Virus record (IMG/VR): IMGVR_UViG_3300011009_000009
Location: 1-28,671 of that record
Length of the DNA: 28,671 nucleotides
From: a virus
Direction: 5' to 3' (one strand)
In this document: one piece after another, positions 2-22,020 of the stretch
Layout of the letters: every line of letters begins with the position of its first letter
Position numbering within the stretch: position 1 is the stretch's first letter
Translations under genes and position numbers: made by a program
The notes under the pieces: generated by a model
What the model was told of the DNA's origin: nothing
The model's input: the letters and a program-made list of their open reading frames with translations, nothing else
Databases searched by the model: none

Positions 2-1459
2 ATTTGTCCAATACATGGTGAGTTCAGACAAGCTCCGGGCAAACACCTAACAGGTGGTTGTAGTAAATGCGGAGCTGATTTTCTCAAGATAGGTGGGTTA
101 GAAAGAGCCAAACTATCCATAGACGCAAGGAAAGAAGAAATACTTAAAAAATTTATAGAGACTCATAGTAACAAATATGACTACTCGTTAGTAAAGTATA
201 CAAGTAATAAGAAGAAAATCCAGATAATTTGCTCAGAGCATGGAGTCTTTGAACAAATACCAATTCACCATCAATTGGGTACTGGATGCCCGGAGTGTAG
301 CAAGGAAGTAGGTCTAGAGGTTAGAAAAATAACACTGGAAAATACTCCTGCTGATATTATAGCCGAAAGACAAAGAAAATCTAGGGAGAATCGAACCCCA
401 ACTCCAATATTGGATCAATACCTAGTGTTCGAAAGAGCATCTAAAATTCATGACGATAAGTACAAGTATATAGATTACAACGGAATGTCTAATGGAATGG
501 ATATAATCTGTCCAAAACATGGTATGTTCAACCAGAGAGCAGTAAATCATGTTAATGGACAGGGTTGTCCGAAATGTTCTGACTCTGATGCAGAGCTAGA
601 AGTGAGTGAATTTATTCAAAGCATCAGTGGTAATGTCATTAGCAGAAGCAAAAAATTAATACCACCATACGAATTGGACATTTATTTGCCCAACCATAAA
701 TTGGCTATTGAATATAATGGGCTTTACTACCATTCAAGTTATGGACCAAATTTAAGAAAACCAAAAATACCCGGTTATCATCAGAAAAAGATGTTGCTTT
801 GCCGCGAAGCGGGTATTGAATTACTACAGATTTTTGAGGATGAATGGGTAAACCCTGTTAAACAGGAAATATGGAAGAGTATAATTCGACACAAACTAGG
901 ATTAACCATCAATAAGATTTATGCAAGGAAATGTCAAATAATGGAATTAGACTTTAAAACTTGTAGCCAGTTTTTAGATGAAAACCATTTAATGGGTAAA
1001 GACTCTAGTCCGATTAGATACGGGTTGACGTTTGAGGGTAAATTAGTCTCGGTTATAACTTTTGGTAAACCTAGTATTGCAGGTGGAAATCAAAAATATG
1101 ATTTCAACATTGGTAGGTTTAGTGTACTCAAAGACACCACCGTGGTCGGGGGATTCAGTAAATTGCTTAAACATTTCCTAAAATACCATCCCAACGTCAC
1201 TCTTAGTACCGCCGCTGATTTAAGATACAGCACTGGTGATGTTTATACTAAAAATGGATTCAAGCTTACTCATGAAACCCGTCCTAATTACTGGTATACC
1301 AAAAGTCAAACCCGATTCCATCGTTTTGGTTTTAGAAAGCAACTATTGGCTTATAAGTTGGAGTTTTACGACTCGTCATTAACCGAGAAGCAAAATATGA
1401 TTTCTCACAAATGGAACATCATCTATGATGCAGGCAATGCGATGTTCGAATTATTCTAG
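2..1459 (+). CDS. Zinc-repeat / Vsr-like (EDxHD) homing-type endonuclease, 5' partial
   Basis: The reading frame is open from base 2, so the gene starts outside the window; a TTG at 275 is internal to a repeat and is not the start. Visible residues: about 485. The N-terminal part has three repeats of an 'ICPxHGxF...GCxxC' type (about nt 5-70, 230-298, 508-577), each with paired Cys/His that could bind zinc and contact DNA. Next (about nt 590-850) comes a Vsr-like nuclease region with 'ELDIYLP', 'LAIEYNGLYYHS' and 'IFEDEW', which fits the E, D, H and D positions of EDxHD homing endonucleases such as I-Bth0305I. The C-terminal part (about nt 900-1370) resembles the GNAT/Mom-like domain often fused to these enzymes ('FLDENHLMG', 'GGFSKLLKHF', 'YTKNGF'). 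It overlaps the convergent minus-strand gene by 9 bases. The likely role is a selfish free-standing endonuclease; the nuclease call is fairly firm, the GNAT-like call is inference. Confidence 0.72.
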   Translation: MCPIHGEFRQAPGKHLTGGCSKCGADFLKIGGLERAKLSIDARKEEILKKFIETHSNKYDYSLVKYTSNKKKIQIICSEHGVFEQIPIHHQLGTGCPECSKEVGLEVRKITLENTPADIIAERQRKSRENRTPTPILDQYLVFERASKIHDDKYKYIDYNGMSNGMDIICPKHGMFNQRAVNHVNGQGCPKCSDSDAELEVSEFIQSISGNVISRSKKLIPPYELDIYLPNHKLAIEYNGLYYHSSYGPNLRKPKIPGYHQKKMLLCREAGIELLQIFEDEWVNPVKQEIWKSIIRHKLGLTINKIYARKCQIMELDFKTCSQFLDENHLMGKDSSPIRYGLTFEGKLVSVITFGKPSIAGGNQKYDFNIGRFSVLKDTTVVGGFSKLLKHFLKYHPNVTLSTAADLRYSTGDVYTKNGFKLTHETRPNYWYTKSQTRFHRFGFRKQLLAYKLEFYDSSLTEKQNMISHKWNIIYDAGNAMFELF

Positions 1460-2233
1460 AAAAGTTTGAGGCTTTGACGAGTCAAAGAGTGCAACACGAT
1501 ATGCCGGATCATGTACGAAAGAGTTTTCGATCGCTGATATTCCATGCACATTACGAAATACTAACGATTTGCTACCATCTGCTTCCAGCAGTTCGTAGAA
1601 GTCGTAAGATGCTCTAGTATTAAGATGATCACATTGACCAAATTCAGCACCACAGTATCCACAACTGTAGCTTTGAGTGTAAGCTCCCATGCTCGTGCTG
1701 TTAAGTTGTCCGCTTAGTATCTTTTCGGTCAGTTCCAGATCTTTAGTTCTATCCAAGGCCATCATAGCTACCACCTTCCAGAGCTTATTTTGACTATAGC
1801 CTTTAAGCTGAGAAAGATGGGTATCAGCTATCAGTCCAAAAGCTGGATCTTTTTTCTCTGCATAACCGTTGGCGTGCTCCACACATAAACCCATTCCGTT
1901 CCATGTTTTGTAGGATTGTGCTCCTCTTTCTGGATTCCATCTAACTAATTCTTTAAGTGGAAATGCTACACCATTTCTATTGGGCAAATCCGAAGTCATC
2001 ATAATTACAGGCCAGAGCATGTAGTCTTTAATATCGGAAGAAATGTCTAGTTCTTTAGCAGCAAATGGTAAAATAGACTCGAAGTCCAATGTTATTTCTG
2101 GTGTTTCTGGTAGGAAAGAACTGGATTTCAGAACACCAGCCGTTATTGAACCGGACCTTCTGGACTCAGCGTAAATATCTACTGGCTTGCAATAGAACGG
2201 CGAGGTATTTATTATCTTAATTTTATTTGACAT
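1451..2233 (-). CDS. Prohead (capsid maturation) protease-like protein with zinc-binding insert
   Basis: 260 residues from the ATG at 2233; a longer frame reaches upstream but would overlap the preceding fibre gene, and 'GGAAAG' lies before this ATG. The layout matches phage prohead proteases (T4 gp21 and S78/S80-type serine peptidases): 'NGVAFP' (88-92), a candidate catalytic His in 'CVEH' (H120), 'FGLIADT', then 'ILSGQLNSTSMGA' (172-184) with Ser candidates S179/S181. A closing segment 'ISAIENSFVHDPAY' recalls the 'ELSFVDDPA' end of the family. Between them C191, C194, C201 and H203 form a CxxC...CxH set typical of a zinc-binding insert in large-phage members. If correct it cleaves scaffold and capsid proteins during head maturation. 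It follows the tail-fibre gene by 4 bases, so it may be the first head gene of the next module. A non-protease virion protein of the same fold is the alternative. Confidence 0.55.
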   Translation of the reverse strand: MSNKIKIINTSPFYCKPVDIYAESRRSGSITAGVLKSSSFLPETPEITLDFESILPFAAKELDISSDIKDYMLWPVIMMTSDLPNRNGVAFPLKELVRWNPERGAQSYKTWNGMGLCVEHANGYAEKKDPAFGLIADTHLSQLKGYSQNKLWKVVAMMALDRTKDLELTEKILSGQLNSTSMGAYTQSYSCGYCGAEFGQCDHLNTRASYDFYELLEADGSKSLVFRNVHGISAIENSFVHDPAYRVALFDSSKPQTFLE

Positions 2234-2237
2234 AATG

Positions 2238-3512
2238 TTAATTGCTTTCCGCCAAATCACCAGACAGAATCCATCTATTACCACCCAAATAAATAAGGGT
2301 AGCTATTGAATTAGCAGTACGTAACTTAGATATTTTATCCGGAGGTAGTAAAATTTCAACGAATGGATCACCACCGGTGATGCTAAACAATTCAGTATCC
2401 AGGTTCTCGTTTGCAGCGAAAGTATACCAGTGGCCGGGAGTGTAAGTCTCGGTTGGATTATATTCCTCGTCATAACTACTAATGATTATATTTATGTAAC
2501 CGAATCCACCGGAGTTGAAGTCTGTTTTCTCACGCAGCAATTTGTACATAAACTGAGTGTGGTTCTCTGGGGTTATATAAAAATCACCGTATTCGTTGGC
2601 CAGTGGCGTAACGTCTATCTCCGGTAGACTTTTATCAACAGGAGCAGAAGATGGTGGAGGTGCTACGGTGGACCCACCTATGGTCTCCAACCTCTGGTGC
2701 AATATGAATTGACTACCATTAGGAACACCAGTGGAAACAGGGCTAAATAACGTAACTAAGCCGGAAGCACTAATAGAAGACACTTCCCTTAGGACACCTA
2801 CCAAAGCACCTTGCGTAAACTGAATTAGATATTTGCCTGGTGTGTTAGTTAGAAAAGCAACATCCAAATTAGTGATGAGAGATGTGGAATTTGAAAGAGC
2901 CGTGGTTGAATTGGTTGCTATTTTAGCATATCCGACTGGTGACCAAATGTTTAGATCACCACGCACTAGTGTACAGGCCAGTTGATTGTAACGATTAGTC
3001 GTAACGCCGACTAGGTTATAGTCTGCAATGTTAGCGGCTGGTGGTACTAAGTCAAAGTTAGGATAGGTTTTGATTTCACGAAGACTGAGCGAATCATTTG
3101 GAATATAACTTATGGCATTATAGATACCGTACATTGATAGATGGGCCTCTAACCCAATTGTGTTCCCCAATTGAGTACCAGTAGTATCACCAGCTTTATC
3201 CTTTATAACGGGATTTGGCAAAACATCGATAGCAAACATATCACCATTAGATAAAAACAAACCAATTTCACCGAAGGCAAAATGACCTATTGATGTATCC
3301 AAATTAATGATGTATTTGATATTATTTGGGTCTATGACTACAGCACCCTCGAGTGCTCCAGTATGCAGAGTGAGACCAGTGAGACCCATCTGATTAATAA
3401 CCGGGGTGTAGCCAAAATTGGACCCCAACTTATAATTAGATATGATGACTGTTGTATTATTGGCTACGGCATTCTCTATAGCTACCTGGCCTAAAGCAGT
3501 AATTAGAAACAT
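2238..3512 (-). CDS. Tail-collar fibre-like protein (short paralogue)
   Basis: 424 residues from the ATG at 3512; an in-frame TTG 18 bases upstream is possible, but the ATG matches the start of the paralogue at 10606-12402. Residues 1-130 follow the tail-collar fibre N-terminal pattern: 'ITALGQVAIENA', 'YKLGSNFGYTP', 'GHFAFGEIGLFLSNG', 'MFAID'. This region normally attaches a fibre to the baseplate. Residues 227-274 ('KYLIQFTQGALVGVL...GSQFILHQ') match residues 229-277 of the paralogue, so two modules are shared. The remaining C-terminal half differs and ends 'TLIYLGGNRWILSG', a phrase common at the ends of phage fibre and hub-associated proteins. It probably acts as an adhesin or adaptor at the tail tip. 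It lies at the left border of the glycosylation block and is divergent from the plus-strand trio. Confidence 0.7.
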   Translation of the reverse strand: MFLITALGQVAIENAVANNTTVIISNYKLGSNFGYTPVINQMGLTGLTLHTGALEGAVVIDPNNIKYIINLDTSIGHFAFGEIGLFLSNGDMFAIDVLPNPVIKDKAGDTTGTQLGNTIGLEAHLSMYGIYNAISYIPNDSLSLREIKTYPNFDLVPPAANIADYNLVGVTTNRYNQLACTLVRGDLNIWSPVGYAKIATNSTTALSNSTSLITNLDVAFLTNTPGKYLIQFTQGALVGVLREVSSISASGLVTLFSPVSTGVPNGSQFILHQRLETIGGSTVAPPPSSAPVDKSLPEIDVTPLANEYGDFYITPENHTQFMYKLLREKTDFNSGGFGYINIIISSYDEEYNPTETYTPGHWYTFAANENLDTELFSITGGDPFVEILLPPDKISKLRTANSIATLIYLGGNRWILSGDLAESN

Positions 3513-3552
3513 TTTTATGGATCTCGACAATTAATGTAAAATAAAATTACTT

Positions 3553-4116
3553 ATGATTGACTTACATATACTTCGTTGGAGACACACCAATCCTTGGTGG
3601 CATGAATGCATCAATTCAGTGCCATCGGACTATTTCAAAGTGCATATTATAAAGTCTAAAGAAATGAATTATGGCAAAGCCAGACAACTAGGATTTGAAT
3701 CCGGACATAATGATTTTGTGTCTTATCTGGATGATGATGATTATCTGACCAACCAAGCCGGAATTGAGGCTAATAATATAGTCATTATGAATATGGATGC
3801 TACCTACACCAATTCAATATTATTATATGATAATGGTATTAAAAGGGAGTATAATCCGGTCTGGCCTCACCAATTGATAATTACTAGAAGATGTATTGCC
3901 ACATTAGCCAGTGTTCAGTCTAACGAACTTATAAAACAAAAAAACTGGAATCCGTTGGTTTTCGATGTTGTATTTCAAAATATCATTCAGAATGCGTTTG
4001 GCTGGCACTATATAGACAAGTTGTTGTACGTTTACAGATATCATAAACATGGTATTAGAAACGATAAAGATATACGCATTGAATTTAGGAAAGTGAGAGA
4101 ATACTTTGGGTCATAA
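3553..4116 (+). CDS. GT-A fold glycosyltransferase-like protein (paralogue A)
   Basis: 187 residues. The N-terminus 'MIDLHILRW', then 'NPWWHECINS' (13-22), then 'VSYLDDDDYL' (56-65) with a run of four Asp (60-63) form the DxD-type metal/nucleotide-sugar site of GT2-like transferases. The protein is small for a GT2 enzyme (usually above 220 residues) but keeps the nucleotide-binding half. The same skeleton occurs in the gene at 5158-5769, so the two are paralogues. It is the first gene of a plus-strand trio inside a minus-strand region, and starts 40 bases from the divergent fibre gene. No purine-rich ribosome site is visible before its ATG. The donor sugar and acceptor are not predictable; context suggests it uses the product of the next gene. 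Confidence 0.68.
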   Translation: MIDLHILRWRHTNPWWHECINSVPSDYFKVHIIKSKEMNYGKARQLGFESGHNDFVSYLDDDDYLTNQAGIEANNIVIMNMDATYTNSILLYDNGIKREYNPVWPHQLIITRRCIATLASVQSNELIKQKNWNPLVFDVVFQNIIQNAFGWHYIDKLLYVYRYHKHGIRNDKDIRIEFRKVREYFGS

Positions 4117-5164
4117 AATACTTATACTGGGCGGCGATGGATACATTGGTTGGCCTCTGTCACTTAGACTGGCCAGTCTTGGGAACGATGTTAGAATAGT
4201 GGATGATTTATCTCGTAGGACGTTCGACTCTAAGCATGGTTTTAAATCTAATATAGCCCATTCGTGGCAAAGAGAATCTGTATCCGGTATAAAGTATCAT
4301 AACGTAAATCTTATTCATAGCAATATAGGCGACATACTCAAACGATATAAACCGGATATTGTCATTCATGCAGCCGGACAAAGATCAGCCCCAGTTAGTC
4401 ATACAAGCAGATACAAGCAGACAACATTTCTAAACAATATTATAATGCTTAACGCATTGGAATCAATCAAAGAAGTAAATAGAGATATCAGGCTGATACA
4501 TTTTGGCAGTATGGGAGTCTATAATAGCTATTCAGAATCTGTTGGGCATGACACGATTGGCAATTTATTGCCTATGGCACCAAAAAGTTTATATCATTTA
4601 ACTAAGTGTCATGACTTATTAACATTGGAATTCTACAGTAGGACTTATGGACTGGATATAACTGAGATTCACAGTGGTACAGCTTGGGGCAGTCAAACCG
4701 CAGAAACATCTAGCCACCCATTTCTGAGAAATAGGCTGGATTATGATTACTATTATGGCACATTCATTAATAGATTCATGTGTCAGGCAGCCATTGGAGA
4801 GCCAATAACTGTATATGGAGACGGTGTTAGTGAAAAATCAATAATCCACATTGAGGATTCTATAATCAATTTAGTCGAAATAATTAATAAAAAACATAAC
4901 ACGCAAACCATTAAAATCAGAAACCACTATACAGAACTAATAACACCAATGATCGCAGCCGATAGAGTCAACTCTGTCTATGGGTTAGGAATCAATAGTG
5001 TTTTTGATAATAGACTTGAAGCTACTACGCAATACAATCCTGTGAGCAGTCATTCTATAATTCAAAGTAAGACTATTTATGATGATTTAATCGCTGAATT
5101 TGATAATATAGATGCGGCCAATATTAGTAAAAAACAGATGAAAATTCAAAATCATAAATGGTAG
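4106..5164 (+). CDS. UDP-sulfoquinovose synthase-like (SQD1-like) SDR enzyme
   Basis: 352 residues from a TTG at 4106; no ATG occurs before residue 114, a purine-rich 'GTGAGAGA' precedes the TTG, and it overlaps the previous gene by 11 bases. It is an extended SDR (NAD-dependent epimerase/dehydratase family): Rossmann 'GGDGYIG' (9-15), 'IVDDLSRR' (31-38), 'GQRSAP' (91-96), 'FGSMGVY' (133-139) and catalytic 'YHLTK' (Y163, K167). Several stretches are hallmarks of SQD1/UDP-sulfoquinovose synthase rather than ordinary epimerases: 'GGDGY.GW', 'QRSAP.S', 'G(T/S)MG', 'NRLDYDYYYGTFINRF' (208-223) and 'CQAAIGEPITVYG' (226-238). SQD1 converts UDP-glucose plus sulfite to UDP-sulfoquinovose. Substitutions to note: Ser for the usual Thr before MG, and Val where SQD1 has Glu after MG. 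These may alter the chemistry. Family assignment is strong; sulfite use is inference. Confidence 0.82.
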   Translation: MGHKILILGGDGYIGWPLSLRLASLGNDVRIVDDLSRRTFDSKHGFKSNIAHSWQRESVSGIKYHNVNLIHSNIGDILKRYKPDIVIHAAGQRSAPVSHTSRYKQTTFLNNIIMLNALESIKEVNRDIRLIHFGSMGVYNSYSESVGHDTIGNLLPMAPKSLYHLTKCHDLLTLEFYSRTYGLDITEIHSGTAWGSQTAETSSHPFLRNRLDYDYYYGTFINRFMCQAAIGEPITVYGDGVSEKSIIHIEDSIINLVEIINKKHNTQTIKIRNHYTELITPMIAADRVNSVYGLGINSVFDNRLEATTQYNPVSSHSIIQSKTIYDDLIAEFDNIDAANISKKQMKIQNHKW

Positions 5165-5769
5165 ATATTCACATACTAAGAAGTCTAGTTAATAATCCTT
5201 GGTGGAATCAATGTATCAATTCCTTTGTGGGACTGGAAACGGTTATTAAGCCCATAGTTGTTGATAATTTTGGTAGGGACCTAATAATGGGACGGAATAT
5301 TGGTTATAATTTAGGAGAAAACGAATATGTTAGTTTTGTTGATGATGATGACTATCTATGCGCTGATTCAGATTACATCGAGAAAATAGTTGATGATGGT
5401 AATCCAGCCTCGTTCACCAATTCGGTGGTATTATCTGATTCTGGGAAAATACATAACTGGATAGATAGTATACATACCAAATGGACAATAAAGACACGAA
5501 GTATTGTTAGATGTCATCAACTTATGATAATGAAGAGAGGGCTGGCTATTAATACCTGCTCGGAAACTACAGCACTAATAAAATTGAAGGGGTGGCACCC
5601 AATGGTTTTTGATTATGTGTTTATTACCTTAATGGCTATAAATCATGGCTGGACTTATTATAATAGACCACAGTATGTATGGAGGTTTAACGGAGCTAGA
5701 AATAGACGATTTGGCTCCATAGATAGTCAAGCGGCAAAAGCTTATTTCAATAAGTTAATCGAATGGTAA
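5158..5769 (+). CDS. GT-A fold glycosyltransferase-like protein (paralogue B)
   Basis: 203 residues; its ATG overlaps the stop of the SQD1-like gene (7-base overlap), so translation is probably coupled. It repeats the skeleton of the gene at 3553: 'VDIHILRSL', 'NNPWWNQCINS' (12-22), 'VSFVDDDDYL' (58-67), 'FTNSVVLSDSG', a 'H(Q)LMIMKRG' segment matching 'HQLIITRR', and 'KGWHPMVFDYVF' matching 'KNWNPLVFDVVF'. The Asp run at 62-65 is the expected metal/nucleotide-sugar site. Its 3' end overlaps the convergent minus-strand gene by 15 bases. With its paralogue it brackets the sugar-nucleotide enzyme, which suggests two successive transfers of related sugars. Specificity cannot be read from the sequence. 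Confidence 0.66.
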   Translation: MVDIHILRSLVNNPWWNQCINSFVGLETVIKPIVVDNFGRDLIMGRNIGYNLGENEYVSFVDDDDYLCADSDYIEKIVDDGNPASFTNSVVLSDSGKIHNWIDSIHTKWTIKTRSIVRCHQLMIMKRGLAINTCSETTALIKLKGWHPMVFDYVFITLMAINHGWTYYNRPQYVWRFNGARNRRFGSIDSQAAKAYFNKLIEW

Positions 5770-6238: not shown

Positions 6239-7006
6239 TTACCAATTCTCCGAGTATATATTTGGTGGAATGGGCCAATCGAAATTGAATTCGTTATTCA
6301 GTAAATGTCTAGCAGCAGAAACAAACCTAATAAAGTTTGGTTCAATAAACACATTCTCATTTTGAAATTGTTCTCTCAAATAATCCAAATCGTTTATATT
6401 CGTATTAATACCCCTAAACCCGTTGTAATATCCATAAAGAAACGCGTCTGATACCTTTCGTGTGGTGTTTTTGTACCACCCGTTTATTCTTTTTAGATCG
6501 CAGTTTTTTAATAATCCGAATTTGTACCCTTCTCTAAAAGCCGCACGGCACCCTTGCCAGATTTCAGAATGATCATTATGGGAATAAACATTAGCCATCG
6601 TTTTTGAATCTACATCCCTAAATTCTATGGAACTGGTCCTAGATGCTTCATGAGTATTCATATTAATGGCTATATTTTTGGACCACATTTTAAGTGAACC
6701 ATTTCCATAGGCTAGCCTAGTAGAGGGATTCCAAGAATTCCAATGATAGTTTATGTTGTTAAGCATCACATGATCTGGTATTTCTATGTCCCCAAAATTT
6801 TTATCAATCCAAATAGTATCGGCGTCTATAGTTATAAATCTAGGAGTAATGGATAATATAGCTGCCTGCTTGTGTGCTGCATTGAATCCCTTAACACCAT
6901 TAACACGCTTGACATCATTTTTTAATTTATGAACAATCTCGTAATTATTATCTGATTGTGGCTCATCGTAACTAATAAAGAACCAATCCAGGTCATAAAT
7001 TTTCAT
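6239..7006 (-). CDS. Phage-type GT-A glycosyltransferase ('GVKGxxxAHK' family), copy 1
   Basis: 255 residues from the ATG at 7006, chosen because 'AGGAAA' stands at good spacing; the frame reaches 9 codons further up. The motifs are those of a glycosyltransferase family common in large and marine phages: 'DLDWFFISYDEP' (5-16), 'RVNGVKGFNAAHKQAA' (34-49), 'FITIDADTIW' (57-66, with the DxD at 61-63) and 'AYGNGSLKMW'. The DxD should hold the metal and nucleotide sugar. It overlaps the upstream GT gene by 14 bases. Paralogues lie directly upstream at 6993-7961 and 7958-8851, giving a tandem array of three. Acceptor unknown; a virion protein or a cell-surface or DNA-linked glycan are all possible. 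Confidence 0.7.
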   Translation of the reverse strand: MKIYDLDWFFISYDEPQSDNNYEIVHKLKNDVKRVNGVKGFNAAHKQAAILSITPRFITIDADTIWIDKNFGDIEIPDHVMLNNINYHWNSWNPSTRLAYGNGSLKMWSKNIAINMNTHEASRTSSIEFRDVDSKTMANVYSHNDHSEIWQGCRAAFREGYKFGLLKNCDLKRINGWYKNTTRKVSDAFLYGYYNGFRGINTNINDLDYLREQFQNENVFIEPNFIRFVSAARHLLNNEFNFDWPIPPNIYSENW

Positions 7007-7961
7007 ACTTTTTCCTAATGTGTTCAAAATCATTTATTAGGTCTGATGTTAAAAGTGATGTCAAGTCTTTGCCGAATCTAGTTGTTATGATTGCGTCAGT
7101 CCACTGGCGAAGACGCTCCATAGAATCTTCATCTTTTTTTACATAAAGTTTAGACATTTCCCTAATAGCGGTTTTATATATACTATATTCAGAGGTATCA
7201 AAAGCGTGTATATTTGTTATCTTGTCCATGAAGATATTATGACCTAACGAAGTAGTTATATCTACATTTTCATCACCACAGCTAGATGCAGGAAACAGGC
7301 TCTTATGCATTAGTTTAATAGCTCCGTGACCATATGGAGTAATCCCCAGTGGGTTTTCAGCTTTCCAAAAAATAGTAGAGGGCCTAAACATGTCAATATC
7401 CACTAAATCTTCTGACGGTAATTTGTTTAGTAAATAACAATCTCCATCTATAACCCAAAACCAATCGGTCGAAGATAATTCGGAAGCTTTCTTGTGGGAT
7501 TGATATATAGTTCCAGCGTTTCTGACTATTTTGAAATCATCATAACCTAGGTCTATTAGTCTTGAAATGTTTCTATATGAGTGGTCTTCATCAGTACATA
7601 TATACATAACATCAAACAATGTTGAAGTAGGTATTCTAATAATATCATTAAATAAGTTTAAATAATGGTCTTTAGATATTCCATAGTCTCTATGAGCTAT
7701 TCCAAACCCGATTGTCCTACTATTTATTATGGTGTTGGTCTCATTTCTGTTAATAGCATAGTTCCTAATAACATTCCCTAAATCTGGGATGGTTATACTA
7801 TTACCATGTAAATACCAAAAATGAGTAGTTGTGGAAGACTTCGCAGCTAATTGAATACCACCCAGAAAATCGTCGGAAACTATCTCGCTAGCCCATGGTA
7901 CTTCTTCTGTAATCTTATCAAAATTACCACTTCCATCATGAATATACATTAAATCTATCAC
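6993..7961 (-). CDS. Tandem-domain glycosyltransferase-like protein with a degenerate first domain
   Basis: 322 residues from a GTG at 7961 that overlaps the previous stop as GTGA; an ATG four codons later is the alternative. The second half has the family motifs: 'FDVMYICTDED' (116-126), 'RNAGTIYQSHKKASEL' (147-162), 'WFWVIDGDCYL' (167-177, DxD at 172-174) and 'PYGHGAIKLM'. The first 60 residues echo the same order: 'IDLMYIHDG' (2-10), 'GGIQLAAKSSTTTHFWYLHGN' spread over 34-54. There the DxD position reads 'HGN', so the first copy lacks the metal-binding acids. This looks like an internal duplication with one inactive or specialised domain. It is the middle gene of the three-GT array and is probably coupled to both neighbours. 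Confidence 0.62.
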   Translation of the reverse strand: MIDLMYIHDGSGNFDKITEEVPWASEIVSDDFLGGIQLAAKSSTTTHFWYLHGNSITIPDLGNVIRNYAINRNETNTIINSRTIGFGIAHRDYGISKDHYLNLFNDIIRIPTSTLFDVMYICTDEDHSYRNISRLIDLGYDDFKIVRNAGTIYQSHKKASELSSTDWFWVIDGDCYLLNKLPSEDLVDIDMFRPSTIFWKAENPLGITPYGHGAIKLMHKSLFPASSCGDENVDITTSLGHNIFMDKITNIHAFDTSEYSIYKTAIREMSKLYVKKDEDSMERLRQWTDAIITTRFGKDLTSLLTSDLINDFEHIRKKYENL

Positions 7962-8851
7962 GACAGTATGTTTCTTGTTTCTTGGTCGGTTAAATTGGGA
8001 TTTGTTCTTATTACTGTTGGTTTGGTCATGTTTGATTTGAAGAACTCCGAAGCCATGGCATCCAAATTGAACAGGTAATCTGGATACTTGTGCTTTATAG
8101 AATCATTAACAAGTTGTTTCTCATTATTTGAGTTCATGTATAGCTGGTAATGTTCCTCCAAAATGCCATAATTAGAAACGTTATTTATATCAAAATCTCT
8201 GTTAAATCTAGACTGATAGAATCCGTATCTAGCTCCCATCATTGCATCCACACCATATTCTACATCAGCACCAATCGACATCCATATTTTTAATTTTGAT
8301 AAAGAATATTGACTAATTGTGTCAGACTTGAAACCTTTATCTGTGGTTAGTTTAACACCCTCCCTAAATCCGGCATAAAAAGCTTGTCTCTGGGTTGAAT
8401 TGATGACAGTTTCTGAATAACATCCAGGCATCTGAACATACCAATCATAGAAACAGAACTCCACTCCTTGCGATGAATTATCGCTGTTTTCATGGCTACA
8501 CATGGTTAAGGCTCTGGATTTGTTCCAAACCTTAAGACCACCATTTCCATATATTAGACCATTGATAGAATTGATAGAATTAAAAGATAATGTTTTGAAT
8601 TCAAATTTGAATTCTAAATCTAGATTCAGATTAAAGAACGAAGCATCGGTAATGATAGTGTCCCCATCTACTAGCACAAAATATGAGCTAGTAGACAAAT
8701 TAGCAGCCGCCTTATGAGCACTATCAATACCTTTGACACCGTGAACACGTTTTATCTTTTTATTGAGCAAGTAGCACAAATGTGCATGATTTTCATCAGC
8801 ATTTGGCTCCTGATAAGACAGAAAAATAACATCTAAATCATTTAGTTTCAT
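7958..8851 (-). CDS. Phage-type GT-A glycosyltransferase ('GVKGxxxAHK' family), copy 3
   Basis: 297 residues. Motifs in order: 'DLDVIFLSYQEPNADEN' (5-21), 'RVHGVKGIDSAHKAAA' (35-50), 'YFVLVDGDTIIT' (57-68, DxD at 62-64) and 'IYGNGGLKVWNK'. This is the clearest member of the family here. The C-terminal 100 residues ('FREGVKL', 'MMGARYGFYQ') are related to copy 1 ('FREGYKFGL', 'FLYGYYNGF'), so the genes arose by duplication. The start overlaps the upstream gene by 14 bases, and only a weak ribosome site is visible. Likely a soluble nucleotide-sugar glycosyltransferase; donor and acceptor are unknown. Confidence 0.72.
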   Translation of the reverse strand: MKLNDLDVIFLSYQEPNADENHAHLCYLLNKKIKRVHGVKGIDSAHKAAANLSTSSYFVLVDGDTIITDASFFNLNLDLEFKFEFKTLSFNSINSINGLIYGNGGLKVWNKSRALTMCSHENSDNSSQGVEFCFYDWYVQMPGCYSETVINSTQRQAFYAGFREGVKLTTDKGFKSDTISQYSLSKLKIWMSIGADVEYGVDAMMGARYGFYQSRFNRDFDINNVSNYGILEEHYQLYMNSNNEKQLVNDSIKHKYPDYLFNLDAMASEFFKSNMTKPTVIRTNPNLTDQETRNILS

Positions 8852-9260
8852 ATATTCTAGTGTTCTTAATATTGGTAGTCAAGAAAATCTCATCGTGTGA
8901 AAAATTTTGATACTCGGTTGTTAATATTATGCCATTTATGATTAATCCACGTTTTGAAACAAGCAGCCCAATCCGTGTTTCACCCGTTTCACCAGTTAAT
9001 TTATAGTTATCACCTAATTTGGTTATTGCTGAGAGTTCCTGCCGGTCTGTCCTCAATACTTCTGATAAATTCATCCTTGGTACATTATTATCAATCTGTG
9101 GAACGATAGAACCATTCACTATTCTAAAACTAGATATTAATTCAAAACAAGACAAAAAACCACTATACAATAGATGTTTGAAATTTAAGTTTATCTCATC
9201 TATAAAATAAGGCTCAATACCTAATATGTATCCATCCTTATCGTAATATATTATTTGCAT
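8838..9260 (-). CDS. Unrecognised small protein between glycosyltransferase genes
   Basis: 140 residues, not recognised. It opens 'MQIIYYDKDGYILGIEPYFID', an alternating hydrophobic pattern suggesting beta strands, and has a central 'YKLTGETGETRIGLLV' strand pair, so a small beta-rich domain is likely. No membrane span, Cys pairs or catalytic motif stand out. It overlaps the upstream glycosyltransferase by 23 bases and the downstream one by 14, so it is translated as part of the same operon. It might be a small virion decoration that receives the glycan or an accessory subunit, but this is only context. Confidence 0.55.
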   Translation of the reverse strand: MQIIYYDKDGYILGIEPYFIDEINLNFKHLLYSGFLSCFELISSFRIVNGSIVPQIDNNVPRMNLSEVLRTDRQELSAITKLGDNYKLTGETGETRIGLLVSKRGLIINGIILTTEYQNFSHDEIFLTTNIKNTRIYETK

Positions 9261-10002
9261 TTTTGTGAAGATTTATTAAATTGCAGAGTTGACGTTTCTG
9301 CATAAAGTGAAGATCGCTAGATATTAATTGGTCATCCATTACTAGTGGATGTAGTTTATTGATGTAATTACTATCATCAACACACTGAATAGAATCCACT
9401 ATTGAAGGGGGTGATAAGCCAAGGATTGAAAGAGCCATAGAATAGGCATAGTCGTTCCTCCATAGAGGAACCGGTATGTTGTAATAAGACCAGTATAAGT
9501 CTTTCTTACTATATATTTCTTTAACCAAATCAAAAAATATTTGCTTGGACTTGTGAAACCAAACCAGAGTGGACCAATAAAATTTATCACCAAGAGAATT
9601 CATATAATTACTAATTGGCTTGTTACCATTAGCCAAATGCGCAATTTGTCCTATTCTTAATTTCTCGGTAAAAGTTTCTTCGAATAAATATACAAGACTC
9701 CTAGTTCTGATTATATAATCGACATCCATCAACAGAGTGTAATCAAACGGTGATATGTCACAGCAATCAAGTCTTAAGTTTTTAAAATTGGAAGAAGTTC
9801 CGTCTCTGTACAATCTAGTGTTATTCTGGTTGTTTACTGTTTTAATAATATGGTCTACTCCAATTATGTCCATGTCAGTTATTAAACATATGGGAACTTT
9901 CGGTAGAAACTTTTTTAGATTGAAAATGCAATATTCAGTCAATGCATAATAATCAATGTTATCATTGTAGAAAGCATACAGCAGTATACCGCGAGTGGTC
10001 AT
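9238..10002 (-). CDS. GT8-like / nucleotide-diphospho-sugar transferase-like protein
   Basis: 254 residues. 'RGILLYAFYNDNIDYYALTE' opens the protein, as in phage proteins of the GT-A nucleotide-diphospho-sugar transferase group. 'PICLITD' (37-43) and 'SPFDYTLLMDVDYII' (84-98) follow, with the DxD at 93-95. 'NLRLDC' (75-80) stands where GT8-type enzymes have their Asn/Arg/Asp donor-binding region. The ATG overlaps the upstream stop as ATGA and has 'GGTGA' before it. It is unrelated in detail to the other five transferases here, so the block contains three distinct glycosyltransferase subfamilies. It could act on the first sugar of a glycan; specificity is unknown. Confidence 0.66.
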   Translation of the reverse strand: MTTRGILLYAFYNDNIDYYALTEYCIFNLKKFLPKVPICLITDMDIIGVDHIIKTVNNQNNTRLYRDGTSSNFKNLRLDCCDISPFDYTLLMDVDYIIRTRSLVYLFEETFTEKLRIGQIAHLANGNKPISNYMNSLGDKFYWSTLVWFHKSKQIFFDLVKEIYSKKDLYWSYYNIPVPLWRNDYAYSMALSILGLSPPSIVDSIQCVDDSNYINKLHPLVMDDQLISSDLHFMQKRQLCNLINLHKNANNILR

Positions 10003-10373
10003 AGTTCACCGATTATAGATGGAATACGGGATTTCAAACTTTTAAGTTTACTATGGGTGTCAAATAGTAGCAACATGGATTCGTTCCATCTACTATGGTA
10101 GTCTTTTATGATTTCTTCGGTTATTACCATTTTGAATGGTTTACCCTCTGTATCTTGACAAACCACAGAGGTCAACCCAGCTATACCAAAAGCAGAAGAA
10201 ATAAAGGAAATGAAAGTTCTATCCACTCTAATACAGTGGAGACCATACTGAATTAGTAGACCTTTATTTATGGTGGCCTTTAGTTCTTCATACAGAAGAG
10301 TTTCTCTGTGTGTCTCTTCGAGTAGAAGATCATGTTCTTCAATTCTACCTAAGATGGTCATGTCTTCTGTCAT
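9999..10373 (-). CDS. Unrecognised protein downstream of HNH endonuclease
   Basis: 124 residues (or 120 from a second ATG at 10361, which has the better purine-rich lead 'AGAAGAC'). Not recognised. The N-terminal third is charged and helical ('HDLLLEETHRETLLYEELKA'), with a hydrophobic stretch 'FISFISSAFGIAGLTSVV' in the middle. The length fits a small structural or chaperone protein. It overlaps the HNH gene upstream by 29 bases and the GT8-like gene by 4. Before the HNH insertion it may have directly followed the fibre gene, which would suit a fibre assembly chaperone; this is speculation. Confidence 0.5.
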   Translation of the reverse strand: MTEDMTILGRIEEHDLLLEETHRETLLYEELKATINKGLLIQYGLHCIRVDRTFISFISSAFGIAGLTSVVCQDTEGKPFKMVITEEIIKDYHSRWNESMLLLFDTHSKLKSLKSRIPSIIGEL

Positions 10374-10605
10374 GGTGCAATTCGCATAGTGTTATTAAGT
10401 TGGTTTTTACACTACGTCCTCCGCGGCTTAGGGGTATAATATGGTGAACTTCAAGCTTAGAATTTCTATTGGTGTTAGTACATCCATTGTGCTGACATGA
10501 GTAATTGTCTCTCTCAAGTATACATTGCCTGATATCGAACCAAGATGTGAGGGTGGTTGAATAGGAGGGCCTATTCAACTTCTTGACCCCGTTTCTTGAC
10601 CCCAT
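10345..10605 (-). CDS. HNH endonuclease (small, probable homing type)
   Basis: 86 residues. The HNH core is plain: 'CILERDNYSCQHNGC' (28-42), 'LEVHHIIPLSRGG' (51-63) with the catalytic His pair, 'NLITLCELHHDRRH' (69-82) with the Asn and terminal His. Cys in 'SCQHNGC' and 'LCELHH' could form a structural zinc site. The ATG follows the stop of the tail-fibre gene with no gap (TAAATG), and its first codons lie in a 13-base tandem repeat. It likely nicks or cuts DNA and spreads as a free-standing homing endonuclease; a terminase-associated HNH role is unlikely because no terminase gene is nearby. Confidence 0.78.
   Translation of the reverse strand: MGSRNGVKKLNRPSYSTTLTSWFDIRQCILERDNYSCQHNGCTNTNRNSKLEVHHIIPLSRGGRSVKTNLITLCELHHDRRHDHLR
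10580..10603 (-). repeat. Short tandem repeat at fibre/HNH junction
   Basis: The 11-mer TTCTTGACCCC occurs at 10580-10590 and 10593-10603 (plus strand), period 13. It lies in the first codons of the HNH gene, directly after the stop codon of the fibre gene. It may be a trace of the insertion event or simple slippage. Confidence 0.6.
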
Positions 10606-12402
10606 TTACCAAGTAGACCCATTATCTATGATAATGGGAGAAGCTACAGGTGGATCATTCAAAAAAGAATTATTGGATTTCTGAAACCCCATATAGCTTC
10701 TTGTAGAGGCGGAGGCGGAGGTATTGGAATAAGGATAAGCACCCGAACTACCACCAGCACCAGCACGATTTCTACCGACTAGCGAACCAACTATCTGAAC
10801 GGCATTGGCGAAGGGACGACTAGCGAATAGAGAATAAGACTTTGGTCCTAGTGGACTAGAAGGTCCTGGTGTGTTTAGTATTTGAACCAAACTAGAACCT
10901 AGGTCATAAAATCCAATGCTTGATGTAATTAAGTTTGATCTAGTTCTATCGTACCCCAGATACACTATACCTATGTTGGCCACCATGTTGCTCCATTCTA
11001 CATCATCTACGTCTATTGAATTAATAATAGACATAGCATGTTGAATAGAACCACCAGCGTTGAAGAAAGCTTTCATGCTATCCGAGTCCGGAAATTGAAA
11101 CAGTGCTGAATGTTGAATAGAGGTACTCCAGCCGGTGGTCCTAATTCTCGTTCCTGATGGTGGTATGGTGACTTGCAAGTCTGCAGCAGCACTTCTACTG
11201 GAAGTCATGAGGCTAATACTAGCATCTAAATTATTGTATCTAGTAATGGTAGTAGCCAAGCCCTGACCACTGGGGTTGGAATTAGAAAATTGGAAGTAAT
11301 CGACTGGAGTTGGAGTGAAGACGGGTGCTAATGGAAGACTAACCGCTGGTATCTGGTGTGCTCTACCCGCATCTAGTTTGTTGTATAATAAATCCCACTG
11401 TGGTCTAGAAGGTCTTTGCGGAATTGGTATTAATGGTATAGGAACTTGGCCATATCCAAAATTATCAGTATCAGTAGACCCGGTGGGTGCTCCGATCACT
11501 CTATTTATTCTGGTGGCAAATGCATTGTATTCCAAAGCCCCAGCGAATAGCAGCGAATTATCTCCACAACATATGGACTTGTGTACTATAAATTGATCAC
11601 CAACAGCCGCTGTACCTGCTGTTGCCGGATTTACTAATATAGTGGTACTGCTAATCCTGCTATCTATATATTTTAAAGTTCCTTTTAAAGCACCTGTGGT
11701 GAATTGTAGGATGTATTTTTTTGGTATTATAACATCAGTTTCTGATATATTATCATAAGTTAAAGATGATGAAACAATACTAGTATTAGTAGTGCCAGCG
11801 CCAATTGTGCCAACAAAATTACATAAATGGGTACTAAAACTCCATTCAAAGTTATTATGTCTGTAAGCTATTCCGGAGTTCCCACAATCATCAATATCGT
11901 GCACAATAAATACGTTAGACCCAGAGGTTGAAGGTGTATCGAGTAGTTGTAAATTAGCGATTTCTGGTATTAGCTCATTAGAATTTGAGTTAATAGGAAA
12001 CTGAAAAACAGCGGTCACATTAGTAGTTAGGACAATTCTGCACTCGATTTCTACTATGTTACCAACTTGCGGACCGAGAGACCTAATTTTCGGTTGTAGA
12101 GTTTCTAAGGCAGCTATAGCAAATAAAACTCCAGAGGCTGTATATAACCCGATCTCTCCAAAAGTAAAATCGCCGATAGATTCGTTTGAGCGAATGATGT
12201 ATTCAACCGTATTGCTGTCGATGACCCTATAATTAGCCAGTGGACCCTGAGATACAGTGGTTCCATTTAATCCAGTTTGAGTTAATAATGGAGTATAATT
12301 AAAAGCACTACCAAACTTAAAGGAAGTTAGATTTATATATGGTCCATTAGGACCACCAGCGGCTATAGCAGCTAAACCAGCATCAGTTATTGTGAAAATC
12401 AT
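10606..12402 (-). CDS. Tail-collar fibre protein (long paralogue)
   Basis: 598 residues. Residues 1-135 match the tail-collar fibre N-terminal domain: 'ITDAGLAAIAAGG', 'FKFGSAFNYTPLL', 'GDFTFGEIGLYTASG', 'LFAIAALETLQPK'. Such domains fix fibres to the baseplate. Residues 229-277 ('KYILQFTTGALKGTL...GDQFIVHKS') repeat a module of the fibre at 2238-3512. A later part has 'FPDSDSMKAFFNAGGSI', a phrase seen in large-phage virion proteins, and the C-terminus is rich in Gly, Ser and Ala ('GRNRAGAGGSSGAYPY'), a possible receptor-binding tip. Its promoter-proximal neighbour is the gpI-like baseplate gene, which is the usual gpJ-gpI-fibre order. The 64-base leader has a weak 6-bp hairpin and no strong ribosome site. 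Confidence 0.75.
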   Translation of the reverse strand: MIFTITDAGLAAIAAGGPNGPYINLTSFKFGSAFNYTPLLTQTGLNGTTVSQGPLANYRVIDSNTVEYIIRSNESIGDFTFGEIGLYTASGVLFAIAALETLQPKIRSLGPQVGNIVEIECRIVLTTNVTAVFQFPINSNSNELIPEIANLQLLDTPSTSGSNVFIVHDIDDCGNSGIAYRHNNFEWSFSTHLCNFVGTIGAGTTNTSIVSSSLTYDNISETDVIIPKKYILQFTTGALKGTLKYIDSRISSTTILVNPATAGTAAVGDQFIVHKSICCGDNSLLFAGALEYNAFATRINRVIGAPTGSTDTDNFGYGQVPIPLIPIPQRPSRPQWDLLYNKLDAGRAHQIPAVSLPLAPVFTPTPVDYFQFSNSNPSGQGLATTITRYNNLDASISLMTSSRSAAADLQVTIPPSGTRIRTTGWSTSIQHSALFQFPDSDSMKAFFNAGGSIQHAMSIINSIDVDDVEWSNMVANIGIVYLGYDRTRSNLITSSIGFYDLGSSLVQILNTPGPSSPLGPKSYSLFASRPFANAVQIVGSLVGRNRAGAGGSSGAYPYSNTSASASTRSYMGFQKSNNSFLNDPPVASPIIIDNGSTW

Positions 12403-19992: not shown

Positions 19993-22020
19993 TTATATAC
20001 TTCCAGTATTTAGTAGTATCATGTCAAGATTTTCTACCATCATGGGTATTGAATCCAGTGAAGTCTTGCTAGAATTGCTAGAGCTGGATTGAGATTGTTG
20101 GGGTGGTGTATTCACCACAACACTAGTAGTAGGTTCCTCATATGAAGACCTATCATATGAACCCGCAGAAATAGAACTAGCTATTGCTGGTGCTGATGAA
20201 GTACCACCACCTGATGCGTTTGCAACCGAGGCAGCTCCCGCGCTCACAGCGGCCATTGGTGAGCTACTGGGTGAGCTACTAGAGGCAGATGAAGAAGAGG
20301 CCACGGAGGCCGTTTTGCTACTTGAACCGGATGGAGTTGCCCCCTCTGTATCGGAGGATGTTGGAGATGCTGAGGGGGGTGTCACGGAGGATGCAGCAGA
20401 TGCTAGTCCACCACCTTGTCTTATAGCACTTTTCTGTCCCTGTATCCCAGCAGGTTCCACATGCCATGGTTCTGGTTTACTAGCACCAAGTAGGGGACGA
20501 GTAAACCCATACTTTGACAGTAAACCCATACTAGATAATTGATCAGCATCAGCCGGGTCAATATCCACAGCATATCCAAATTCATGCATAGATTGACCCG
20601 GTGGCGCTGCCCATCCCGGACCCTTTTCCTTGTAAAGTCTTTCCTGCTCAGCTGCTGACCTCTTGGCCGAATTGATTCTAAGTTTCTTGCCTGTTTGTTG
20701 ATAATATTCGGTAGCCATCGATGAGAGATTAGTTTTAACTCCATCGTTGAGACCATTCAAGTCAACTCCTGGCCTAATGTTAACCAAATCAGTAAGTTTG
20801 GCAGATAAGGCGGAGGTACTAACTGCAGCTGGATTGACAGTTACTGGTTTGCCATCAAAAGTCGTTTTACCCAATGCCTTAGACTGCTCTGTAGGTGCTA
20901 CATTAGCTACTTTACCAAGAGAATCACCAATTAGACGTGAGACAGAAGCGCTTTTATCGGACCCCTTATTATTAATGTACTCGTCAAATTCTTTGGAAGC
21001 TATATCTCGTACGTTAAATTCACCCGTCCCATATTTGGGGTCAGCATTAAGCTCAGGCATCCGCTTCTTGATATACTCCGATTTAAGTTTATTAAGTGTT
21101 TTACGACTGTCGGAGTTACCAGCTAATGATTGATTTGAGGCTGCTTTGTTATCAGCCAGCGTAGCAGCGGTTATAGCACTTGCTTTCTGGGCATCAGTTA
21201 ATCTCTGGTCAGCTGGTTTAGCAGCTTCTCTTGCTTCTATATCCGCTTTATTTTTAGCCCTATTTGCATCGTTGTTTTTGTCTTCTTCACGAACTGTTTT
21301 GTAGAGACTGTAGGCAAAGGCGGAAAGACTACCAACAATAGCAAGACCAGCAAGAAGGGGGAGAGCAGATGTAGCAAATCCAGCCAATCTACCTAGCATC
21401 CCGACAGGGAACATTCCAGATGAATCACCCTTATCTCCGGATATTTTTCGAAGCAGCTTGTTAGTTTCTTTATGTTCACTTAATTCTTTATTGATGGCTA
21501 CAGCATTTCCATCATCCTCCCCATTGGTCAGTCTTCTTATTTGGTCTACTAGTCCGCGTCTGTCTGACTCTTTAGATTTTAATTTGTCTTTGTATTCATA
21601 GGCATTTTTACCAACAGAGGTGGATTCTAGAACACCCCTAACTATTCCTTTGAAATAGGTGTCTTCTTTGCCCTTTAATTTTTCCTTAGTATCTTCTACT
21701 TTTTTCTTAACCCAGGATTTATTAAGTTCAGATAACTGCACATTTAGTTTCTTTAATTCATCCTCATTGTATTTAACTGGATTATCTTCGATTATTTTAG
21801 CTATTTTTTTCACCAAACTAGGAGAATTGTCTTTCGAGGAAATAATAGAGGCTATGAAATCCTTGAGTTCCTTCAGTTGTTGAACAAGATTGGAGGTAGA
21901 AATGTCACTATATTTTTTGATTTGTTCGTCTAGACTTTTATAATATGACTCAAGTGATACCCTAAAATCATCTGGAGACTTCAGAAGAGAAGCTGTAGAA
22001 CCAATGGTGTATTTAATCAT
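19993..22020 (-). CDS. Tape-measure-position protein with M15 (VanY-like) peptidase domain
   Basis: 675 residues. Residues 1-200 are charged helix/coiled coil; 209-237 is a hydrophobic membrane-type segment ('FATSALPLLAGLAIVGSLSA'); 240-400 is helical and charged. Residues 420-525 form an M15/VanY D-Ala-D-Ala-carboxypeptidase-like domain: 'SAKRSAAEQERLY' (451-463), 'QSMHEFGYAVDID' (476-488) with zinc ligands H479 and D486, and 'EPWHVEP' with E517 (catalytic) and H520 (ligand). The tail end is Ser/Ala/Pro-rich. It is the only long gene between tail chaperones and hub, the place of the tape measure protein, and T4 gp29 is of like length (about 590). A combined ruler and peptidoglycan peptidase is therefore proposed; the enzyme domain is seen, the ruler role is inferred. 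Confidence 0.8.
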   Translation of the reverse strand: MIKYTIGSTASLLKSPDDFRVSLESYYKSLDEQIKKYSDISTSNLVQQLKELKDFIASIISSKDNSPSLVKKIAKIIEDNPVKYNEDELKKLNVQLSELNKSWVKKKVEDTKEKLKGKEDTYFKGIVRGVLESTSVGKNAYEYKDKLKSKESDRRGLVDQIRRLTNGEDDGNAVAINKELSEHKETNKLLRKISGDKGDSSGMFPVGMLGRLAGFATSALPLLAGLAIVGSLSAFAYSLYKTVREEDKNNDANRAKNKADIEAREAAKPADQRLTDAQKASAITAATLADNKAASNQSLAGNSDSRKTLNKLKSEYIKKRMPELNADPKYGTGEFNVRDIASKEFDEYINNKGSDKSASVSRLIGDSLGKVANVAPTEQSKALGKTTFDGKPVTVNPAAVSTSALSAKLTDLVNIRPGVDLNGLNDGVKTNLSSMATEYYQQTGKKLRINSAKRSAAEQERLYKEKGPGWAAPPGQSMHEFGYAVDIDPADADQLSSMGLLSKYGFTRPLLGASKPEPWHVEPAGIQGQKSAIRQGGGLASAASSVTPPSASPTSSDTEGATPSGSSSKTASVASSSSASSSSPSSSPMAAVSAGAASVANASGGGTSSAPAIASSISAGSYDRSSYEEPTTSVVVNTPPQQSQSSSSNSSKTSLDSIPMMVENLDMILLNTGSI

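Follow-up and report, generated by a model that had tools for sequence, protein, structure and literature searches.

Sulfoquinovose occurs in sulfolipids and in archaeal N-glycans. Of the UDP-sulfoquinovose synthases (EC 3.13.1.1), SQD1 of Arabidopsis thaliana has been solved (PDB 1i24, 1i2b and 1qrr), and SqdB of Alphaproteobacteria (Rhodobacter sphaeroides, Sinorhizobium) is encoded within sqdBDC; in R. sphaeroides, deletion of sqdB abolishes the sulfolipid (PMC11346425). Agl3 of Sulfolobus acidocaldarius makes UDP-sulfoquinovose for protein glycans rather than a lipid, and nine of its residues produce a defect when mutated (PMC4388408). A putative UDP-sulfoquinovose synthase has been published in a Mu-like virus from the Cariaco Basin (PMC7785012), which we liken to the present gene by its name, its virus type and context being different. 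Here, a divergent member of this lineage lies in a glycosyltransferase operon within the virion-gene region of a phage. This is new, as are the wide spread of the family among phages and its glycan setting without the lipid arm (sqdD).

The window, meaning the whole stretch of DNA that was analysed, is 28.7 kb long and is part of the genome of an uncultured phage with a contractile tail (an IMG/VR record). Besides the following features, a tail tube, a baseplate and tail fibres are recognisable.

1451-2284, minus strand: head maturation protease (phrog_18299, 1.7e-57)
2238-3530, minus strand: tail fibre protein at the left edge of the island, paralogous to 10606-12402
3553-4116, plus strand: glycosyltransferase-like gene with a YLDDDDYL motif (phrog_19440)
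4106-5164, plus strand: extended SDR of the SQD1/SqdB lineage, 352 aa, TTG start (ORF call, family search, fold match and trees)
5158-5769, plus strand: glycosyltransferase-like gene with an FVDDDDYL motif (phrog_14775)
6239-7033, minus strand: member 1 of a paralogous family, DxD-type motif IDADT, no family match
6993-7961, minus strand: member 2 of the same family, IDGDC motif
7958-8851, minus strand: member 3, VDGDT motif, 40% identical to 6239-7033
9238-10002, minus strand: putative GT-A-like ORF, read from the sequence by its LLMDVDY motif alone, no family match
10606-12402, minus strand: tail fibre or tail collar protein at the right edge of the island
25643-27556, minus strand: tail sheath, 40% identical to those of the Burkholderia phages BcepSauron and BcepSaruman and the Achromobacter phage Motura

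The tail sheath shows that the contig comes from a contractile-tailed phage with BcepSauron, BcepSaruman and Motura as distant relatives, and the head maturation protease shares 40% identity, along 208 residues, with a region of BcepSauron. Searching for sister phages with the head protease as query found none. The sugar-transfer-like island sits between the two paralogous minus-strand tail-fibre genes, and its plus strand holds three overlapping genes: the SQD1-like gene shares 11 bases with 3553-4116 and 7 bases with 5158-5769. Virion-type genes around the gene and an overlapping glycosyltransferase-like gene on each side agree with the phage origin and glycan context put forward by the first-pass annotation. 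The two flanking genes are paralogues (34-36% identity) that share the DDDD motif; the product of 5158-5769 is predicted to adopt a GT-A fold (pLDDT 83), with GT2-type enzymes as best matches and a Foldseek value of 1.5e-7 to chondroitin polymerase. Relatives of these flanking genes (L231-L245) had no SQD1-like gene within the stretches fetched. The three tandem minus-strand paralogues at 6239-8851, for which sequence searches of Pfam, PHROGs and the PDB gave no match, are probably a new family with a putative glycosyltransferase-like role. A promoter and terminator scan gave results barely distinguishable from shuffles.

The SQD1-like ORF is intact, with no internal stops, lies just downstream of a purine-rich aggaaagtgagaga, and has a third-position GC of 0.31, the same as the phage structural genes. 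The SQD1 motifs initially quoted for it (GGDGY.GW, GQRSAP, G(S)MG and others) were all located in the 352-aa protein: GGDGYIGW begins at residue 9, HAAGQRSAP at 88, GSMGVY at 134, YHLTK at 163, RNRLDYD at 208, YGTFINRF at 217 (NRF being 222-224) and CQAAIG at 226. The NAD-binding GxxGxxG is present as G9, G12 and G15, and the [ST]MG...YxxxK fingerprint (PMC8987622) appears as S135-M136-G137, Y163 and K167.

Homology searches returned the same family. The protein matches the UDP-sulfoquinovose synthase model NF041015 of NCBIfam with an E-value of 6.2e-57, the next family reaching 2.6e-14; its 193 bits fall below the equivalog cut-off of 575 bits, as do the scores of other SQD1-like rows, bacterial and phage (299-488 bits). 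In a PDB sequence search, SQD1 was found at 1.8e-46 and the runner-up, UDP-xylose synthase, at 1.5e-8. The AlphaFold model (pLDDT 84, pTM 0.88) matches SQD1 with a Z-score of 42.5 and an rmsd of 2.1 over 347 residues, compared to 30.0 or less for any epimerase or dehydratase, a result that is partly circular and supporting only because an SQD1-like alignment went into building the model. Arabidopsis SQD1 is therefore the best solved match by both sequence and fold, sharing GxxGxxG, QRSAP, S/T-M-G and YxxxK, but the identity is 36%, Glu148 is replaced by Val, the protein has 352 aa compared to chains of 394-404, and the phage gene is probably not for sulfolipid. With alphaproteobacterial SqdB the window protein has in common its lineage, the catalytic triad, the NRLDYD/NRFDYD motif, the Val at SQD1-148, and His208, Trp213 and Thr185. 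It differs from SqdB in its identity of ~35%, a shorter loop near 150, changes at R263, Q209 and Q261, the lack of SqdD and SqdC partners, and its place in a phage between glycosyltransferase genes.

Trees were calculated with GalE, RfbB, Gmd, Fcl and phage epimerases as outgroups, and all SQD1-like proteins, including the window's, fell on one side of a branch with 99-100% SH-aLRT support. A place among 4-epimerases or dehydratases had been named in advance as the outcome that would speak against the SQD1 lineage, and the AU tests did not refute that lineage. Joining the window protein to GalE (UDP-glucose 4-epimerase) was rejected with P = 4.3e-5, to RfbB (RmlB, dTDP-glucose 4,6-dehydratase) with P = 3.9e-6 and to the phage epimerases with P = 6e-107. 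Together with the family, PDB and fold scores, these trees confirm that the nearest relatives of the gene are the UDP-sulfoquinovose synthases SQD1/SqdB.

We gathered relatives from IMG/VR, GTDB genomes, an alphaproteobacterial sample and plasmids, and found that the SQD1/SqdB family divides into two clades. The E-type clade carries Glu at SQD1-148 and contains plant SQD1, Actinomycetota, Chloroflexota, Bacillota and some phages; the V-type clade, mostly with Val at this position, contains most phages and the Alphaproteobacteria. In Sinorhizobium sp. M103 (L259) and two alphaproteobacterial genomes (L251 and L253), on which the assignment of sqdBDC to the V-type is based, a GT8-like gene and then an SDR gene come immediately after the V-type gene, as in sqdBDC. 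In our sample, 2 of the 18 V-type cellular loci lie in sqdBDC, and the remaining 16 lack SqdD, at 61-66% identity to Sinorhizobium SqdB. A Pelagovum pacificum plasmid has a phosphoadenylyl-sulfate reductase gene, which would supply sulfite, directly after its V-type gene. In two Hyphomonas MAGs (L005 6143-8081 and L046 4053-7575), a divergent V-type gene occurs apart from sqdDC and adjoins a conserved glycosyltransferase gene (66%) and a sulfotransferase-like gene (68%).

These clades change how the active-site substitutions are read. The first-pass annotation had proposed that Ser-for-Thr and Val-for-Glu could mean different chemistry; both substitutions are real, but neither is unusual for the family. 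Ser falls within the [ST]MG fingerprint (PMC8987622), and Agl3 T144A retains full activity (PMC4388408). Val is the usual residue in the SqdB clade and is found in all SqdB rows linked to sqdBDC, so that V138 is specific to the clade and does not define the family. Since sqdB of R. sphaeroides is required for its sulfolipid and V-type SqdB occurs in sqdBDC, Val is compatible with sulfoquinovose synthesis, and we dropped it as a sign of altered chemistry. The normal occurrence of Val in this clade also argues that the Glu proposed as a catalytic acid of Agl3 is not universally required for UDP-sulfoquinovose synthesis.

Compared through published residues only, Agl3 and the window protein share eight of the nine defect positions (PMC4388408). 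His95, Arg101, Met145, Tyr148, Ser180, Tyr182, Thr185 and Lys186 of Agl3 correspond, in this order, to H88, R93, M136, Y139, S161, Y163, T166 and K167, which includes the essential His95, Arg101, Met145, Tyr182 and Lys186; the ninth, Glu147 (SQD1 E148), is V138. The features that are truly odd, judged from the alignment and trees, are a long branch and changes at family-conserved columns, neither of which the earlier reading had mentioned. Among the 58 columns conserved at 95% or more in both clades, the window protein keeps 44 and departs at 14, including R263K, Q209S, Q261S, Q293H and P326N in SQD1 numbering; E99G is likewise a marked change. The Lys at R263 stands where every other aligned row has Arg, and the loop near SQD1 150-160 is missing. 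Where the V-type (SqdB) and E-type (SQD1) clades differ, at 20 columns, it resembles the V-type at 8 and the E-type at 3.

The window protein's terminal branch is correspondingly long (2.4-4.6 changes per column). It lies outside the E-type clade with 99.9% support, and placements inside the V clade, beside it or basal to it all have p-AU values of 0.36 to 0.59, the value for branching outside the crown of known synthases being 0.59. In some trees, its nearest row is a paralogue on the Rhizobium rhizogenes plasmid pC6.5b (WP_174048986.1, L260), a join of two long branches that is not starred. This SQD1-like gene likewise lies between two glycosyltransferase genes and, like the window's, lacks the family Glu at SQD1-99; it differs in keeping Q209, Q261 and R263, in its 42-44% identity to SqdB and in being on a plasmid instead of a phage.

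Our preferred explanation, to which we give nearly an even chance, is that the gene encodes a divergent SDR of the SQD1/SqdB lineage that modifies a UDP-hexose, the sugar then passing to a virion or host-surface glycan by way of the overlapping glycosyltransferases. The long branch and the changes at 14 of the 58 conserved columns make the product uncertain, and that it is sulfoquinovose has about an even chance; we class the gene as a divergent enzyme of the SQD1 lineage, short of a proven UDP-sulfoquinovose synthase. A serious competitor, which we consider possible though clearly short of an even chance, keeps the lineage and changes the product: an SDR derived from SQD1, or sister to it, that lost sulfite addition or never had it, and that supplies the phage glycosyltransferases with a UDP-sugar in the form of a 4-epimer, a 4-keto sugar, a 5,6-ene or a product carrying another nucleophile at C6. 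The altered near-invariant positions and the very long branch speak for it, as do the deepest SQD1-like placement, which the AU test does not reject, and the plasmid paralogue, which sits between glycosyltransferase genes and not in sqdBDC. Opposing it are the retention of every Agl3-essential residue but Glu147, the [ST]MG and NRLDYD motifs and the whole-fold match to SQD1, and the join to the plasmid paralogue, which is not starred, unites two long branches.

The same rapid divergence, with its lost loop and conserved residues, would also be expected of a captured sqdB gene that survives as a relic, decaying or without catalytic activity. We regard this as unlikely, as the ORF is intact and overlaps glycosyltransferase genes in an operon, the catalytic triad and NAD-binding glycines are kept, the third-position GC equals that of structural genes and the model is confident. 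Less probable still is a nucleotide-sugar epimerase or 4,6-dehydratase of the common kind annotated in many phages (phrog_540). The protein does have a generic SDR fold, it matches phrog_540 at 1e-24, and its matches among the 50,697 phage records of INPHARED are weak and epimerase-like only (~25% identity). However, the SQD1-specific scores are better by many orders of magnitude, the AU tests reject GalE, RfbB and phage epimerases, and the Asp-Glu pair of dehydratases is absent from the sequence at the TMG site. Lineage aside, the window enzyme could have acquired an epimerase- or dehydratase-like activity by convergence.

If the divergent enzyme modifies a UDP-hexose as we prefer, then its most likely reaction would convert UDP-glucose and host sulfite into UDP-sulfoquinovose inside the infected cell; for this protein the lineage, the fold, the kept residues and the gene order are shown, and substrate, sulfite use, product and acceptor are inferred. 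According to the scheme established for SQD1 and Agl3 (PMC4388408, PMC8987622), NAD would oxidise C4 of UDP-glucose through Y163 and K167 with S135 assisting, water would be lost across C5-C6, sulfite would add at C6 and C4 would finally be reduced. The two glycosyltransferases encoded by the overlapping genes would next attach the sugar to a glycan rather than a lipid, the glycan being carried by proteins of the phage tail or the rest of the virion, or by the host surface. The role proposed here is of the same kind as that of Agl3, whose setting, cellular N-glycosylation in an archaeon, is unlike that of a phage. Phage-encoded glycosylation of virions has a precedent in mycobacteriophages (Freeman et al. 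2023, as cited in PMC12619734). If phage genes do make a sulfonated sugar, phage glycans would gain a new kind, one that is strongly acidic and chemically stable and that mass spectrometry would readily detect.

The window gene belongs to a family that is common on uncultured phage contigs, where we aligned 79 distinct viral SqdB/SQD1-like proteins after removing duplicates (47 clusters at 75% identity; about 36 V-type and 9-10 E-type). INPHARED gave only generic epimerases, so work on isolates would miss the family. An exact-peptide search of IMG/VR for close relatives of the window protein found none, the pattern GDGYIGW returned six stretches that were all unrelated, and a BFVD fold search gave dehydratases and epimerases as best viral models (~20% identity), with no SQD1 among the matches listed. 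Dozens of other uncultured phages carry proteins closer to UDP-sulfoquinovose synthase than the window's, and phages may therefore decorate something with a sulfonated sugar. One V-type gene (L098) groups very closely with Sinorhizobium sqdB in the tree; the 20-kb contig that carries it, classified as viral, may be host DNA or a provirus.

The immediate gene neighbours of the V-type phage genes (123 proteins) include GT8, GT1, GT2 and TET-associated glycosyltransferases, FkbM and other methyltransferases, epimerases and sulfotransferases; those of the E-type include NeuB and cytidylyltransferases. Several of the E-type phage genes L211, L216, L219, L224, L225, L227 and L228 adjoin NeuB, cytidylyltransferase and UDP-GlcNAc 2-epimerase genes, which would place a putative nonulosonic-acid pathway beside the sulfosugar enzyme. 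SqdD is absent from the window's ORFs and from the phage loci, and SqdC gave weak SDR matches only in phages and none in the window; the neighbourhood of phage SqdB-like genes suggests a role in glycans rather than lipid. A role in DNA modification is also conceivable, because TET-associated glycosyltransferases flank some V-type phage genes. We tentatively propose, as an idea somewhat likelier to fail than to hold, that many uncultured tailed phages, including the window's, carry their own sulfosugar branch. It would combine a synthase with glycosyltransferases, and in some cases with sulfotransferases or NeuB-type enzymes, to place sulfoquinovose or a related sulfonated sugar on virion proteins or the host surface, and the window enzyme would be a fast-evolving member with shifted specificity.

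Sulfite would need to be supplied by the host, since PAPS reductase was found in none of the 30 phage records with homologues; the 28.7-kb fragment likewise contains no gene for sulfur metabolism or sulfite supply. In just one of the homologue-bearing records (L002), a cysteine dioxygenase-like gene, which might provide sulfite, adjoins the SqdB-like gene, and a TET-associated glycosyltransferase gene lies on the other side of the latter (6-467 and 1743-2522).

Virion-like ORFs with poly-Thr tracts of 9-36 residues lie upstream of the cluster in other phages (L003 2032-14652, L094 291-3911, L095 4600 and L096 1884-4908), and these clusters hold SqdB-like, glycosyltransferase, methyltransferase and sulfotransferase genes; the tracts are possible O-glycan acceptors. 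In the window, a tail-region protein (19993-22020) has long Ser-rich stretches near its C-terminus that may be linkers or O-glycosylation sites. An HNH-like ORF (10345-10605) adjoins the glycosylation island and a homing-endonuclease-like ORF (275-1459) lies near the left end; both are read from the sequence alone, and they may have helped the island to move.
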